A stretch of DNA of 37,442 nt, from NCBI GenBank assembly GCA_013812905.1, contig JACCSP010000182.1, positions 1 through 37,442 on the forward strand, read 5' to 3'. Below the pieces are notes generated by a model. The model was not told the DNA's origin. It saw nothing but the letters and a program-made list of their open reading frames with translations, and ran no database searches. Made by a program: the position numbers and the translations under genes. The stretch's first letter is position 1, and each line of letters begins with the position of its first letter. Positions 4,669 to 31,273 of this stretch are shown in pieces. The stretch is from Pyrinomonadaceae bacterium. Its GTDB lineage: Bacteria > Acidobacteriota > Blastocatellia > Pyrinomonadales > Pyrinomonadaceae.

Positions 4669-4732
4669 CGTAAATGGTAAATCGTTAAATGAAAAGACCT
4701 CCCGATTCACGATTCCCGATTTACGATTCACG
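4669..4732. repeat. Heptad array 1 (mraZ-rsmH junction)
   Basis: Right half 4703-4730 is four tandem heptamers of consensus CGATTYM. Left half 4669-4690 holds three units (7, 7 and 8 nt) of CGTAAAT type, the reverse complement of a permuted CGATTTA. A 12-nt spacer separates them. The arms can fold into an imperfect hairpin. The array begins 6 nt after the mraZ stop. Confidence 0.75.
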
Positions 4733-10221: not shown

Positions 10222-11376
10222 ATGATCTACTACTTTTTATACGAACTACTCTACAGCCATTTCAAGGAGAAGGACTGGTTTCTGATCAAGGCTCTTAATG
10301 TCTTTCAGTATGTAACTTTCCGCACTGCCTACGCCACGATCACAGCCCTGCTGCTTTCCCTCTTGTTTGGCGGCAAGTTTATTCAGGCACTACGGAGGTG
10401 GAACGTCGGACAACAGATTCGTGAGGAAGGCCCGCAGGGTCACAAGGCAAAGCGAGGCACGCCCACCATGGGAGGTGTGTTGATCGTTGGCTCGGTGCTT
10501 ATCTCGACTCTAATCTGGGCGCGTCTAACAAACATCTATATTTGGACGATAATAATCGCGACTCTCATGTTTGCCACGATCGGATTTCTTGACGATTACG
10601 CGAAGATGGCCAAACAGCGAAGCCTGGGTCTTACCGGCAGACAGAAGTTGCTGGCCCAACTCCTAATTGCCATTGGTGTCTGGATCGTCCTTTTTGTTTC
10701 TACCAAGTACTTAGCCAGCGACTATTCATGGAATGTCAGCATTCCTTTCCTGAAAACTACATCTGAGCCCTTCGGGATCAGTTTCATAGGACCTTATCTT
10801 TACCTGATATTGATTGTGATCGTGTTGCTGGGCTGGTCAAACGCAGTGAATTTGACCGATGGCCTGGACGGCCTGGCAATTAGCGTGACCTTCATTGCTA
10901 TGGCCGCCATGACTGGTTTCACTTACTTAAGTAGCGATGCGCGCTGGGCAAGATACCTGGAACTAACACACCGGCCTGAAGCGGCTGAGTTGACTGTGTT
11001 TTGTGGCGCAATGGCCGGCGCCAGCCTTGGATTCCTTTGGTATAACGCGCCGCCGGCCGAAGTCTTCATGGGAGATGTGGGAAGTCTGGCTATCGGCGGA
11101 GCGATTGGTACCGTCAGTATCCTCACGAAACAGGAATTCATGCTGGTAATGGTGGGCGGCGTTTTTGTTTTGGAAGCCTTGTCGGTGATGCTCCAGGTAG
11201 GTGTTTTCAAAATGACCAAAAGAACCACTGGCACGGGCAGGCGACTCTTTAAGATGACCCCGCTGCATCATCATTTCGAGATGCAGGACTGGAAGGAATC
11301 GAAAATCGTCTTTCGATTTCTGATCCTGGCGATACTTTTTGCGCTCTTAAGTCTCTCGACGTTGAAGCTGAGGTAG
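10222..11376 (+). CDS. mraY: Phospho-MurNAc-pentapeptide translocase MraY
   Basis: A 384-residue integral membrane enzyme with about ten hydrophobic segments. It transfers phospho-MurNAc-pentapeptide onto undecaprenyl phosphate to make lipid I. Key motifs are all present: KRGTPTMGG near the N-terminus, the acidic pair D124-D125 (DDYAK), N210-LTDGLDG with the catalytic Asp, MGDVGS, and the H349-H-H-F-E loop. The [12 protein letters not shown]-terminus matches the family start. Its TAG stop overlaps the first unit of heptad array 2. murD follows 141 nt later. Confidence 0.96.
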
Positions 11377-11492
11377 GCAGTGGGCAGTGTGGCAGTGAAG
11401 AGATTGCCGATTGTCGATTTTGCGATTCGCGAGCGGCATCTCGATTCCGCAGGGTGGCAAACTTTTGTCAAAGATCGCAAATTGGAAATTGG
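11376..11492. repeat. Heptad array 2 (mraY-murD junction)
   Basis: Three kinds of heptad sit in one junction: GGCAGTG three times (11376-11382, 11383-11389, 11391-11397), four CGATTNN-type units (11401-11429, one of 8 nt), and AAATTGG twice (11479-11492). TTTGCGAT (11419-11426) and ATCGCAAA (11474-11481) are exact inverse complements, so the arms can pair. The first unit includes the last base of the mraY stop codon. Confidence 0.7.
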
Positions 11493-11517
11493 CCGCTGTT
11501 CACTCCATTGAGGTTGT

Positions 11518-12900
11518 TTGGAACTGGCTGGCAAGAAAGTCTTAGTGATGGGCGCAGCGCGCAGCGGAATTGCCAGCGCGAAGTTTCTGGCCGCGCGCGG
11601 CGCCACCGTCGCCCTCAACGATGAGAAGCCAATACAACAGTGGAGCCCGGAAGCGGTGGCCCTGAAAGATGAGGGGATAGGTTGTCTTCCCGGCGAGGCG
11701 CCTGGTTGGCTGCTCGACAATATCGACTTTCTGGTGGTGAGCCCCGGTGTTCCGGTCAAAAGCATTCCGGTCAGGTACGCCGAGCGAGCGGGCGCTGAAA
11801 TCATCGGCGAGGTAGAACTGGCTTCGAGGTTTTTGAAGGGCCGCATGGTGGCCATCACCGGGACTAACGGCAAGACCACGACAACGGCATTGATTGGGGA
11901 GCTGTTGAAGGATGCGGGATTGCCCGTGCAAGTGGGTGGAAACATCGGTACACCGCTGCTAACTCTGGTAGAAGGCTCAAGGGATGACGGCTGGACGGTT
12001 GTCGAACTATCGAGCTTTCAGTTGGAGACGATCAAGGAATTCCATCCCTCGGTTGCAGTAGTGCTGAACGTTACGCCAAATCATATGGATCGATACGAAG
12101 CAGTTACCGATTACGCCGCGGCCAAGCACCGAATTTTTATGAACCAGGAGCCAGGCGACGTAGCTGTACTCAATGGCGATGACGAAGTGGTTTCGTCCTG
12201 GGCGAGCGGCTTGCGTGCTCAAGTCGTGACCTTTAGCGTGCGACGCGAGCTCTGCGAGGGACTCTTCCTACGCGGGCGGGACTTGGTTTCTCGCACCGGC
12301 GCTGGCGAACGGACGCTCATGAAGCGTGACGAGATAAAACTCCGCGGGTTTCACAATGTTGAGAACGTGCTGGCGGCGTTGTCAGTTGGGCTTGCGTGCG
12401 GCGCCAGTCCTGAATCGATGCGGGAAACGGTGAGTGGCTTCGAGTCGGTGGAGCATCGTCTAGAGCTTGTAGCTGAGATTAAGGAGGTCAAGTTTTACAA
12501 CGACTCCAAGGCCACCAGCGTCGATGCGACGCTGAAAGCTCTTGAAGCTTTCAAAGATGATGCGGGCAAGCTCGTTTTAATTCTCGGCGGCAAGGGTAAG
12601 AAAGCGCCTTACACTCCGCTTGCGGAGCTCATCCGCCAGAGCGTGCGGCAACTTGTTTTGATTGGTGAAGACGCGGCGCGGATCGCAAAGGAACTTGGGG
12701 AATACGCACCTATCCATCGAGCCGTTGACATGCACGAAGCCGTCAAACTCTCGTTTCGGTCAGCGCTTCCCGGCGACATTGTCTTGCTCGCGCCGGCGTG
12801 TGCGAGCTTCGATATGTTTAAAAGCTTCGAGCACCGGGGGGAAGCTTTCAAGAGAGAAGTGCGCAGTCTAATGTCCAGTGTCCAAAGTCCTACCAGCTAA
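11518..12900 (+). CDS. murD: UDP-MurNAc-L-Ala:D-Glu ligase MurD
   Basis: The 460-residue ligase adds D-Glu to UDP-MurNAc-L-Ala. It has the N-terminal Rossmann-like start (KKVLVMGAARSGIASAKFL), the P-loop GTNGKTT (115-121), the NVTPNHMDRY motif and the C-terminal NDSKATSVDAT and LILGGKGKK segments that mark MurD. The start is TTG at 11518: an in-frame TGA at 11509-11511 blocks any upstream start, and GAGG at 11510-11513 gives a short-spaced binding site. The last ten or so codons are made of heptad repeat DNA (array 3), so the C-terminus LMSSVQSPTS is probably a repeat-derived tail. ftsW starts 41 nt downstream. Confidence 0.95.
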   Translation: MELAGKKVLVMGAARSGIASAKFLAARGATVALNDEKPIQQWSPEAVALKDEGIGCLPGEAPGWLLDNIDFLVVSPGVPVKSIPVRYAERAGAEIIGEVELASRFLKGRMVAITGTNGKTTTTALIGELLKDAGLPVQVGGNIGTPLLTLVEGSRDDGWTVVELSSFQLETIKEFHPSVAVVLNVTPNHMDRYEAVTDYAAAKHRIFMNQEPGDVAVLNGDDEVVSSWASGLRAQVVTFSVRRELCEGLFLRGRDLVSRTGAGERTLMKRDEIKLRGFHNVENVLAALSVGLACGASPESMRETVSGFESVEHRLELVAEIKEVKFYNDSKATSVDATLKALEAFKDDAGKLVLILGGKGKKAPYTPLAELIRQSVRQLVLIGEDAARIAKELGEYAPIHRAVDMHEAVKLSFRSALPGDIVLLAPACASFDMFKSFEHRGEAFKREVRSLMSSVQSPTS

Positions 12901-12929
12901 CGTTGGACGTTGGACCTTGGAGATTGGAC
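12870..12929. repeat. Heptad array 3 (murD-ftsW junction)
   Basis: Left half 12870-12890: three tandem heptamers of the form ANNGTCC, inside the murD coding sequence. Right half 12902-12929: four tandem heptamers of the form NTTGGAS, after the stop. GTCC and GGAC cores are inverse complements, giving a hairpin whose loop contains the murD stop codon. The right half ends 11 nt before the ftsW ATG. Confidence 0.8.
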
Positions 12930-12940
12930 GGTTTTAAGCA

Positions 12941-14137
12941 ATGGCCCGAAAGCTAAATCCAGACAAATGGTTGTTTGCGACCACGGTCGGTCTGGCGCTT
13001 TTCGGCGTCGTGATGGTCTACAGCGCTTCGGCGGTTATGGCACAACGCGAAAACGGCGATGAGTTTCATTACGTTCTCAAGCAAGGAATCTGGACGGGAA
13101 TCGGTTTTGTCGTGATGCTGGCCGCGATGCAGGTCGACTACAAGCACTTAAGAAATCGCCGAGTCGTCTACGGTTTGCTGGCGGTGACGACCGTAATGTT
13201 GCTCGCTGTGTTCGCGTTCCCGGCCACCAACGGCGCTCATCGCTGGATCAAGCTTCCCAAGCTCTCAATTCAACCGTCCGAACTGGCTAAGCCGTCCCTG
13301 GTGATATTTCTTGCTTACTTCCTGGAGAGGCGCGCTGGTGAGGAAGGCCAGTTCTGGGCCACTTTTATGCCATGCGCTATTGTTACATTCGCGTTGGCCG
13401 GTCTGATCGTGATCGAGCCTGACCTCGGTACGGCAATGATGCTCGGCATGATTTTCATCGTCGTTGTCTACACCTCCGGCGCTCGGCTAAAGCACCTGGC
13501 AATGGTAGCGACACCGGCTCTGTTAATTGGTGCGGGGCTGCTGATCTTTGTCCCATTTCGAATTCGGCGTTTGATCACTTTTCTCGATCCGTGGGCGGAT
13601 CCGCAGGGGAGCGGATTCCAGGTGGTGCAGTCGCTTATTGCCGTGGGCTCCGGGGGGCCGAATGGTTTGGGATTCGCTCAGGGCAGACAGAAGATGCTGT
13701 TCCTCCCTTTTGCTCACTCTGATTTCATCTACGCGGTTGTGGGTGAAGAATTGGGACTGGTAGGAGCGTTGGCGGTAATTGCAGTCTTTGCTCTCTTTCT
13801 CTGGCGCGGCATACGAGCATCACTGCTGGCGCCGGACCGGTTTGGGATGTTGCTGGCATTAGGTCTAGTAACGGCGATCGTTACTCAAGCGCTCTTTAAT
13901 ATCAGCGTGGTCCTGTCCCTCGTCCCCACAAAAGGTATTCCTCTGCCGTTCATCTCTTACGGCGGATCATCTTTAGTGCCCACGCTCGCTGCGGTGGGCA
14001 TACTGCTCAATATCTCCCAGCAGGGCGCCGGTTCCTTTGAGAGGGGAGTGCTGGGATCATTAATGACTCGCGCGCGCCGGGAACTGAAACCGCGGGTCGC
14101 AACCGGCAGGCGAATCGCTTCGTCGCGCTTCGGGTAA
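12941..14137 (+). CDS. ftsW: Septal peptidoglycan polymerase FtsW
   Basis: A 398-residue SEDS-family protein with about ten membrane helices. It polymerises lipid II into glycan strands at the septum together with FtsI. Family motifs seen are GVVMVYSASA in helix 1, HRWIKLPKLSIQPSELAK, the EPDLGTAMM loop, GLGFAQGRQKMLFLPFAHSDFIYAVVGEE split over the large extracytoplasmic loop (its core is conserved in SEDS enzymes) and PFISYGGSS near the C-terminus. The SEDS catalytic Asp is expected in the EPDLG loop. The C-terminal 45 residues are basic and cytoplasmic. It could be the related RodA, but its place in the dcw cluster supports FtsW. murG starts 6 nt later. Confidence 0.94.
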   Translation: MARKLNPDKWLFATTVGLALFGVVMVYSASAVMAQRENGDEFHYVLKQGIWTGIGFVVMLAAMQVDYKHLRNRRVVYGLLAVTTVMLLAVFAFPATNGAHRWIKLPKLSIQPSELAKPSLVIFLAYFLERRAGEEGQFWATFMPCAIVTFALAGLIVIEPDLGTAMMLGMIFIVVVYTSGARLKHLAMVATPALLIGAGLLIFVPFRIRRLITFLDPWADPQGSGFQVVQSLIAVGSGGPNGLGFAQGRQKMLFLPFAHSDFIYAVVGEELGLVGALAVIAVFALFLWRGIRASLLAPDRFGMLLALGLVTAIVTQALFNISVVLSLVPTKGIPLPFISYGGSSLVPTLAAVGILLNISQQGAGSFERGVLGSLMTRARRELKPRVATGRRIASSRFG

Positions 14138-14143
14138 AACACG

Positions 14144-15232
14144 ATGCGCGCACTGATCGCCGCGGCGGGCACCGGCGGACATATTTATCCGGGTATTGCC
14201 GTGGCGAAGGAGATTCTTCGCCGCGATCCTGAGGCAGAAATTAGATTTATAGGCACGGCTCGCGGGCTCGAAACTAAACTAGTGCCGAAAGCGGGCTTTG
14301 AACTTTCGATCATTGACAGTGCCGGCTTGAGGAGTGTTGGCCCAGTCGCCCGGCTGCGTGGGGTAGCCATGCTCCCGGGCAGTTTTCTCTTGGCAAAACG
14401 GATTATCAGGGACTTTCGGCCTGACATTGTGATAGGCGCCGGAGGATATGTCTCCGGACCGGTGGTGTTGACAGCAGCAATCCTAAACCTGCCCACGCTG
14501 ATCATGGAGTCAAACGCCTTACCTGGCTGGACCAATCGCATGCTGGCGCGCTTTGTCGACAAGGCCGCGGTTTCGTTTGAAAAGTCGCTCATTTTTTTTC
14601 GAGGCAAGGGGGTGGTGACCGGCAACCCGGTAAGGCGCGAGTTCTTTGAGATGCCCGCAACAGAGCGAAAAGCAGGCCGTTTCTCAGTGCTGGTTTTTGG
14701 TGGATCCCAGGGGGCGCATGCAATCAACGAAGCAATGGTTGCAGCTCTGCCGCAACTGGAGAGTTTGCGCCGCGCCTTGCGAATCACTCATCAAACCGGC
14801 GAAACAGATTTTGAAGGGGTATGTGCGGGGTATGCCAACGCCGGTTGGGCAGAGCAAGGGGATGTGAGGCGCTACATCGACGACATGGTGGAGTCGTTTG
14901 GCGACGCAGATCTTGTGATTTGTCGGGCCGGCGCGACAACTACGGCAGAACTTATCGCCGCGGGCAAAGCGGCCATCATGATCCCTTTTCCTTTGGCAGC
15001 AGATGACCACCAGAGAAAAAACGCGGAGGCACTAGAAGTGGAGGGAGCCGCCAGGATGATTCTGCAGCAGGATCTAAGCGGCACCCGACTTGCCCAGGAG
15101 CTGAAAAAACTTGTCCAATCTCCCGCCGAAATCAGGAAGATGGAAGAAGCCAGTCGCAAACTAGGCCGAGGCGACGCTGCCGCTGCCGCGGTTGATCTAA
15201 TTGAGGAGTTGATTGAAAGCAGGAAACAGTAG
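14144..15232 (+). CDS. murG: Lipid II synthase MurG
   Basis: A 362-residue GT28 glycosyltransferase that adds GlcNAc from UDP-GlcNAc to lipid I on the inner face of the membrane. The first G loop, AAGTGGHIYPGIAVA, opens the protein. GAGGYVSGPVV, the ESNALPG motif, VTGNPVR, the second G loop FGGSQGAHAIN and the AE-LIAAGKAAIMIPFP sugar-nucleotide site follow in family order. Length is normal. The gene is 6 nt downstream of ftsW, so translation is probably coupled. Heptad array 4 begins directly after its TAG stop. Confidence 0.95.
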   Translation: MRALIAAAGTGGHIYPGIAVAKEILRRDPEAEIRFIGTARGLETKLVPKAGFELSIIDSAGLRSVGPVARLRGVAMLPGSFLLAKRIIRDFRPDIVIGAGGYVSGPVVLTAAILNLPTLIMESNALPGWTNRMLARFVDKAAVSFEKSLIFFRGKGVVTGNPVRREFFEMPATERKAGRFSVLVFGGSQGAHAINEAMVAALPQLESLRRALRITHQTGETDFEGVCAGYANAGWAEQGDVRRYIDDMVESFGDADLVICRAGATTTAELIAAGKAAIMIPFPLAADDHQRKNAEALEVEGAARMILQQDLSGTRLAQELKKLVQSPAEIRKMEEASRKLGRGDAAAAAVDLIEELIESRKQ

Positions 15233-15235
15233 TCG

Positions 15236-15330
15236 GTTGTCAGTGGTAAGTTATCCGTTGTCAGTTTAACGAGCAACGCATCAACATAAGGACCAAGAAC
15301 CAAGAACCACGGACTACTGACCACTGACCA
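15236..15330. repeat. Heptad array 4 (murG-murC junction)
   Basis: Left half 15236-15270: five tandem heptamers that all begin GT (GTTGTCA occurs twice). After a 19-nt spacer, right half 15290-15330 has six units, of 7, 7, 7, 6, 7 and 7 nt, of GAACCAA and CTGACCA type. The right units are inverse complements of the GT units, so the halves can fold back. The array starts 3 nt after the murG stop and ends 4 nt before the murC ATG. Confidence 0.8.
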
Positions 15331-31125: not shown

Positions 31126-31133
31126 GGGTAGAA

Positions 31134-31229
31134 CCATTTTCCATATCTCATTTGTCATCTAGAGAATCCGGAGCGTTAACTCGTTTGAGTAATGGAAAAT
31201 GAGAAATGTCAAATGCGATATGGAAAATG
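31134..31229. repeat. Heptad array 5 (xdhC-DUF962 junction)
   Basis: Left half 31134-31161: four heptamers of YCATNTN type. Right half 31192-31226: five tandem heptamers all starting ATG (ATGGAAA twice), plus a final ATG at 31227-31229. The halves are inverse complements (20-nt stretches differ at about one base), separated by a 30-nt spacer. It lies between an upstream stop and a downstream gene start, as in the dcw cluster. Confidence 0.8.
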
Positions 31230-31273
31230 TTTTCGCACCTCTTGAGTTCAGTCAACGTCTCCGAAGGCTGAAA

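Follow-up and report, generated by a model that had tools for sequence, protein, structure and literature searches.

The last codons of murD in the DNA stretch analyzed here (37,442 nt from a soil bacterium of the Pyrinomonadaceae, hereafter the window) lie within a hairpin of tandem seven-nucleotide repeats. This array has rewritten the tail of MurD outside the solved fold of the protein: the codon for a conserved leucine is retained, whereas the heptad dictates the other tail codons. Among relatives, a hairpin persists at the murD-ftsW junction even though its heptads vary between close species. The hairpin is probably a single copy of a non-coding repeat that is dispersed in the Pyrinomonadaceae, spread by hairpin copying, tolerated at gene ends, and mainly a passenger or a generic hairpin. 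What makes the case of wider interest is that a dispersed DNA repeat invades the coding end of essential genes, murD here and murG in relatives, and carries a clear trace of protein selection within it. Genomes are designated G000 (that of the window), G001 and so on.

A heptad hairpin encodes the end of MurD

The features of the murD end are collected in Table 1. The C-terminus of MurD reads EVRSLMSSVQSPTS followed by the stop, with residues 450-459 encoded by the left arm of the hairpin, and 40 nt separate murD from ftsW.

Table 1. Features at the murD-ftsW junction, in window coordinates.
Feature	Position	Strand	Basis or remark
murD (UDP-MurNAc-Ala:D-Glu ligase), 460 aa	11518..12900	+	Pfam Mur_ligase_M, Mur_ligase_C, MurD-like_N; PDB MurD matches up to residue 446-452
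Outermost fifth heptad, decayed, GTGCGCA	12859..12865	+	Codon/heptad table; the same place is GTCCAAA in G009 and GTCCAAT in G002
5' arm, four GTCCAAN-type heptads (GTCTAAT GTCCAGT GTCCAAA GTCCTAC), coding for the last MurD residues	12866..12893	+	
Conserved Leu451 codon CTA	12868..12870	+	Second heptad off consensus here; CCA would give Pro
Hairpin loop, 8 nt, with murD stop TAA at 12898-12900	12894..12901	+	Predicted fold
3' arm, four NTTGGAC heptads (GTTGGAC GTTGGAC CTTGGAG ATTGGAC)	12902..12929	+	
ftsW	12941..14137	+	Pfam FTSW_RODA_SPOVE; start 11 nt past the end of the 3' arm

The predicted RNA fold of positions 12860-12945 has an energy of -35.1 kcal/mol (z -4.6), and none of 200 shuffled sequences folded as well; folded as DNA, the same hairpin gave a z of -3.7, with 1 of 200 shuffles as good. 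Searching the window for TTGGACNTTGGAC with up to two mismatches gave 9 matches against 2.66 expected, a number reached by 0 of 100 shuffles, and six of the nine matches are the two arms at the murD end. Sequence and fold thus confirm the first-pass annotation, which had read the left half of the array as the last codons of murD and placed the stop in the loop; of its boundaries, 12870-12929, the right one holds, and the clean arms begin at 12866. Two identities for the hairpin were rejected: it is not an intrinsic terminator, as no GC-rich hairpin with a T run was found in 12700-13150, and it is not a known RNA family, as no Rfam family was found in the window at gathering threshold.

The array rewrites the MurD tail around a conserved leucine codon

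Of eleven solved MurD sequences, ten align at most to query residue 450-452 and one to 446. Thus, the MurD tail lies beyond the solved fold. The alignable stretch closes with the motif K-x-x-V-x-x-L, whose end position is Leu in 32 of 40 genomes, and the heptads start precisely at the V codon in G000, G009, G002, G012, G014, G011, G006, and G004. In all eight arrays of the GTCCAA, GTTTCGA, and GTTTCAA types that are in this register, heptad 2 departs from consensus at the Leu codon, although these eight genomes represent fewer independent events because relatives share the pattern. The codon reads CTA, TTG, TTA, or CTC in these arrays, where the array consensus would give Pro or Phe. The array of G034 is shifted to a different register, and the Leu of G020 is encoded by the regular heptad as such. 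As read from the junction sequences, the 3' arm of neither G009 nor G012 carries a change matching the Leu-keeping deviation, which therefore fits selection on the protein and not on pairing.

The array extends into the murD frame in 19 of the 22 family genomes with heptads at murD-ftsW. In G000 the MurD tail comprises 16 residues after a conserved F, against 12-20 in array-free family genomes (n=7), and it reaches up to 42 residues in other genomes. Across genomes, heptad-bearing tails are longer (median 22, n=22) than those of the 7 array-free family and 9 outgroup genomes pooled (Mann-Whitney p = 0.0055, uncorrected for kinship). A longer tail as a sign of takeover was therefore rejected for G000: its tail is of normal length, so a new stop did not extend its MurD. 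The proposal that the array had spread into the murD end and supplied a new stop accordingly stands as far as the array encodes the end of MurD, and falls as far as it implied a lengthened protein.

The same MurD tail encoded by non-repetitive DNA, which would have spoken against a takeover, was not found in the nearest relatives; G009 and G002 share the array. The split between G000 and these two genomes sets a minimum age for the murD-end array. The expected contrast between gene ends with and without an array was found at MurG, encoded in the same operon, which ends in ELIESHV in the array-free G012 and in ELIESKRRMAVGSG in the array-bearing G009, with the stop inside the array. The MurG of both G009 and G002 ends in SKRRMAVGSG, and a GGCAGTG-type array encodes this end and supplies the stop.

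The murD-ftsW junction keeps a hairpin while its heptads change

We compared dcw regions from 40 relatives and scanned, in 30 family and 10 outgroup genomes, the junction between the last MurD helix and the start of ftsW. Most of these genomes are draft metagenome assemblies, and counts are uncorrected for kinship. G005, with a truncated murD, was left out of the tail-length table and of the junction scan and tree; G022 and G040, which lack the anchor motif of the tail-length table and were dropped from it, were included in the scan and tree with a looser motif. Period-7 segments occurred at murD-ftsW in 23 of 30 family genomes and 1 of 10 outgroup genomes, while the control periods 4, 5, 6, 9, 10, 11, 12, and 13 gave none and period 8 a single genome. 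At least 14 different heptads, labeled by eye (GTCCAAN, GTTTCGA, GATTGCC, GTCAGGT, and others), occupy the junction, and they differ even within the genus. On the MurD tree, GTCCAAN forms a single clade of G000, G009, and G002, nested among genomes with GTTTCGA (G012, G014, G006, G011) or GTTTCAA (G004), with GATTGCC in the adjacent G007. The simplest reading of this nesting is that the sequence was replaced while the hairpin stayed. Mapping all 18 heptad labels onto the tree required 18 changes, the minimum possible being 17.

Fold z-scores were below -2 in 19 of the 23 heptad-bearing regions, with a median of -5.9; G035 and G057 fell below the 40-nt length limit of this test. Furthermore, two of the six family genomes without period 7 that were tested have strong hairpins at the junction (G003, z -8.7, L145; G017, z -9.1, L142). 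Thus, palindromes of another make also occupy murD-ftsW.

Heptad arms have fixed polarity, a fixed core, and about four units

The order of the arms is constant. The same arm comes first in 49 of 49 GTCCAAN hairpins, with none reversed, and ATTGCC gave 24 to 0; other heptads keep the same order too, apart from a single reversed case, with the overlapping core GATTGC. These counts were made on pieces picked without regard to polarity. In the 49 GTCCAAN hairpins, the internal 6-nt cores show 2.5% mismatch per position, and the seventh base varies freely (A 135, T 115, C 70, G 44): neighboring seventh bases agree in 76 of 236 cases (0.32, expected 0.29), and those opposed in the stem are complementary in 40 of 115 (0.35, null 0.31), which is not beyond chance. 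The seventh base of ATTGCC (G 106, A 60, C 1) is independent between neighbors as well, with agreement in 48 of 100 cases and 0.53 expected. For GTCAGT, neighboring variable bases agree in 29 of 51 cases against 0.33 expected, and some other heptads are likewise above expectation.

In the dcw regions of 31 genomes (510 kb), a set not selected for arrays, there are 165 period-7 segments with a length peak at 30-33 nt. Four whole heptads are present in 79 of the 165; an inverted partner accompanies 102 segments, and 61 of these contain four. The GTCCAAN and GGCAATY regions, in contrast, were picked from matches with at least two exact units, which favors longer arms. As a separate observation on 52 paired hairpins, the first arm is richer in G than in C in 34 and the reverse holds in 18, many of them GTCCAAN; there may be a strand rule.

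The element is dispersed and occupies other operon junctions

In the whole G000 genome (347 contigs, 3.79 Mb, Pyrinomonadaceae-like), GTTGGACNTTGGAC with one mismatch gave 139 matches, compared to 7 for the reversed control pattern. In 200 kb of G000, mostly picked for holding arrays, there were 37 period-7 segments and 0-4 at each of periods 4-6 and 8-13. Numbers differ widely among 16 genomes of the genus. TTGGACN pairs number 203 in G004, 175 in G014, and 116 in G000, and are absent from G005, G010, and G015; GGCAATY pairs range from 0 in G014 to 113 in G003, and CTCGAAA pairs reach at most 22 per genome.

We followed three further junctions, first seen with GTCCAAN in G000, through the 16 genus genomes, leaving NO-NEXT matches uncounted. 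The hairpin lies 0-7 nt past the stop in most filled cases, the heptads vary, and relatives have bare states. Between the amidase gene and preA, GTCCAAN is present in G000, G012, G011, and G004, and GATTGCC in G007, G002, G001, and one copy in G010; in G014 and G008 the hairpins are of a different make, and the gap is bare in G005 (4 nt), G015 (15 nt), and the other G010 copy (11 nt). At M48-fabI, GTCCAAN is kept in the four genomes nearest by the M48 protein (G000, G009, G012, G007), with seventh bases and unit numbers that differ among them.

Elsewhere in the window, the most clear-cut arrays consist of heptads different from those at the murD end. The mraY-murD gap (11376-11500) holds a decayed array with GATTGCC-like units; clean GATTGCC hairpins are found there in G012 and G007, and G009 has only a 24-nt gap. 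In the murG-murC gap (15230-15330) a GTCAGTG / CACTGAC hairpin is mixed with an AAGAACC array, and the same gap in G004 (L136) has a very long ACTGACA-type run, unlike the usual four units. A CGATTCA-type array is situated at 4700-4732, about 40 nt past the end of the upstream ORF, and positions 31132-31232 contain a 27-nt inverted repeat (89% complementary) together with a 14-nt tandem repeat.

Discussion

The element consists of a pair of inverted arms, each of about four heptads, with a short loop between them, and occupies operon junctions from just past one stop to just before the next start; at murD-ftsW it overlies the last helix turn and the tail of murD. It may have spread by the copying of whole hairpins between loci, a reading suggested by the constant arm order of each heptad, and the position of the MurD tail outside the fold points to tolerance at gene ends. 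Its role would then be mainly that of a passenger, or of a generic transcript hairpin between cistrons, and not that of a regulator specific for murD or ftsW. Loops and flanks appear by eye to be unrelated between loci, which is odd for copied hairpins and counts against copying. The birth, replacement, and loss of such elements can be tested directly, as many closely related genomes bear different heptads at shared junctions.

A somewhat doubtful but tenable alternative is that selection maintains the hairpin as an RNA element between cistrons (an mRNA stabilizer, a processing site, or a translation insulator), so that its structure is kept while its sequence drifts. Hairpins outlast heptad changes at murD-ftsW with the strong folds described above (median z -5.9 in the 23 regions), their placement just past the stop is regular, and other palindromes take the same places in some genomes; the strong hairpins of G003 and G017 without period 7 are what keeps a selected structural role in consideration. 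However, close relatives have bare gaps of about -8 to 24 nt at other junctions, opposed seventh bases are complementary only at chance level, and the Leu-keeping deviation is not answered in the opposite arm of G009 or G012. A narrower proposal, in which termination in the loop would let ribosomes open one arm and in this way govern initiation at ftsW, strikes us as hardly credible. In the window the stop does lie in the loop with ftsW 40 nt downstream, and the same holds for the loop position in G009, G002, and G004. Yet the stop falls within or past the second arm in G021, G022, G012, G006, G014, G011, and G020, and precedes the array in G008, G025, and G023; in G012, G006, G014, and G011 both arms are in the murD frame, with the stop either 2 nt away from the ftsW start or past it. 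As the place of the stop relative to the hairpin (loop, arm, or outside) varies with the species, a loop-stop switch is not a conserved design, and the effect on ftsW suggested by the first-pass annotation is unsupported.

How the arrays arise can be read in other ways as well. Polymerase slippage on 7-nt units, combined with repair of imperfect palindromes, could make and homogenize arrays in place, with neither copying between loci nor recognition. That heptads favor slippage in bacteria is put forward as a hypothesis in the accessible portions of PMC4679880 and PMC4692102, and the agreement of neighboring variable bases in GTCAGT (29/51 vs 0.33) is what slippage would leave. We nevertheless judge this origin unlikely, since a slippage duplication would copy the seventh base along with the core, whereas GTCCAAN combines a 2.5% core mismatch with a free seventh base whose neighbors agree at chance, as do those of ATTGCC; nor does slippage predict the fixed polarity across loci or the peak at four units. 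Quite improbable in our view, a templated polymerase (reverse-transcriptase or telomerase-like) might write out any heptad some four times in each arm, leaving one base loose, and place the hairpin behind stops. It would fit because the 6-nt core is fixed, the seventh base free and independent, the count about four, the polarity fixed, and the heptads interchangeable; if true, it would make the quadruplex account of the four-unit rule in Xanthomonas a coincidence.

Comparison with known repeat systems

REP/BIME elements are dispersed extragenic palindromes associated with RAYT transposases. The elements described here are likewise dispersed extragenic palindromes, and Y1_Tnp genes are present in 14 of the 16 genus genomes; unlike in REP/BIME, the arms are tandem heptads of changing sequence. 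GTCCAAN counts correlate with Y1_Tnp counts in the 16 genomes (rho 0.54, p 0.03, without correction for kinship), no relation is seen for GGCAATY counts, and two genomes in which Y1_Tnp was not found, G010 and G015, have GGCAATY arrays. A link to Y1_Tnp is weak, holding for one heptad of two.

In the limited open-access set of literature consulted, nothing was found on such repeats in Acidobacteria. In other groups, the P6b stem of the Nostoc trnL intron is described, in the available text of PMC3488679, as base-paired degenerate heptanucleotide repeats. As there, the heptads here pair into one hairpin, have degenerate positions, and vary in copy number; P6b is part of an intron RNA, whereas our element sits in operon junctions of protein genes, and the Rfam search of the window at gathering threshold did not place it within an intron. 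The TAACTGA repeats of Beggiatoaceae and Cyanobacteria, as far as the accessible text of PMC4679880 goes, are also 7-nt units dispersed between genes; unlike those here, they are direct repeats of one heptamer, mostly just before starts, with one indirect repeat reported.

The closest resemblance is to the GGGAATC / (GGGANTN)n heptamer repeats of Xanthomonas (Rehm et al. 2015, PMC4692102). The accessible sections of that paper report convergent inverted pairs (70 in Xcc and 75 in Xac), link the four units to G-quadruplexes, and state that the authors were unable to identify a role in gene regulation. Both systems have 7-nt units with variable positions, mostly four of them, in convergent inverted pairs that are intergenic, near the end of the upstream ORF, and variable in length and sequence between relatives. 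In our data, period 7 lies far above other periods, four units prevail (79/165 dcw segments, 61/102 with an inverted partner), and the convergent arms have fixed polarity (49/49 GTCCAAN hairpins). Quadruplex-capable G-runs are missing from the main heptads, GTCCAAN, GTTTCGA, and GATTGCC being without GGG; since the four-unit preference holds nonetheless, its cause has to be looked for elsewhere than in G-quadruplexes. As described in the available text, the Xanthomonas repeats also differ in that here the arms overlap coding ends, the host is an acidobacterium, and many heptad sequences coexist, sharing one junction in different species. Judged by sequence, the architecture is already known from the Xanthomonas heptamer pairs, and the elements of the Pyrinomonadaceae would be its version without G-runs.
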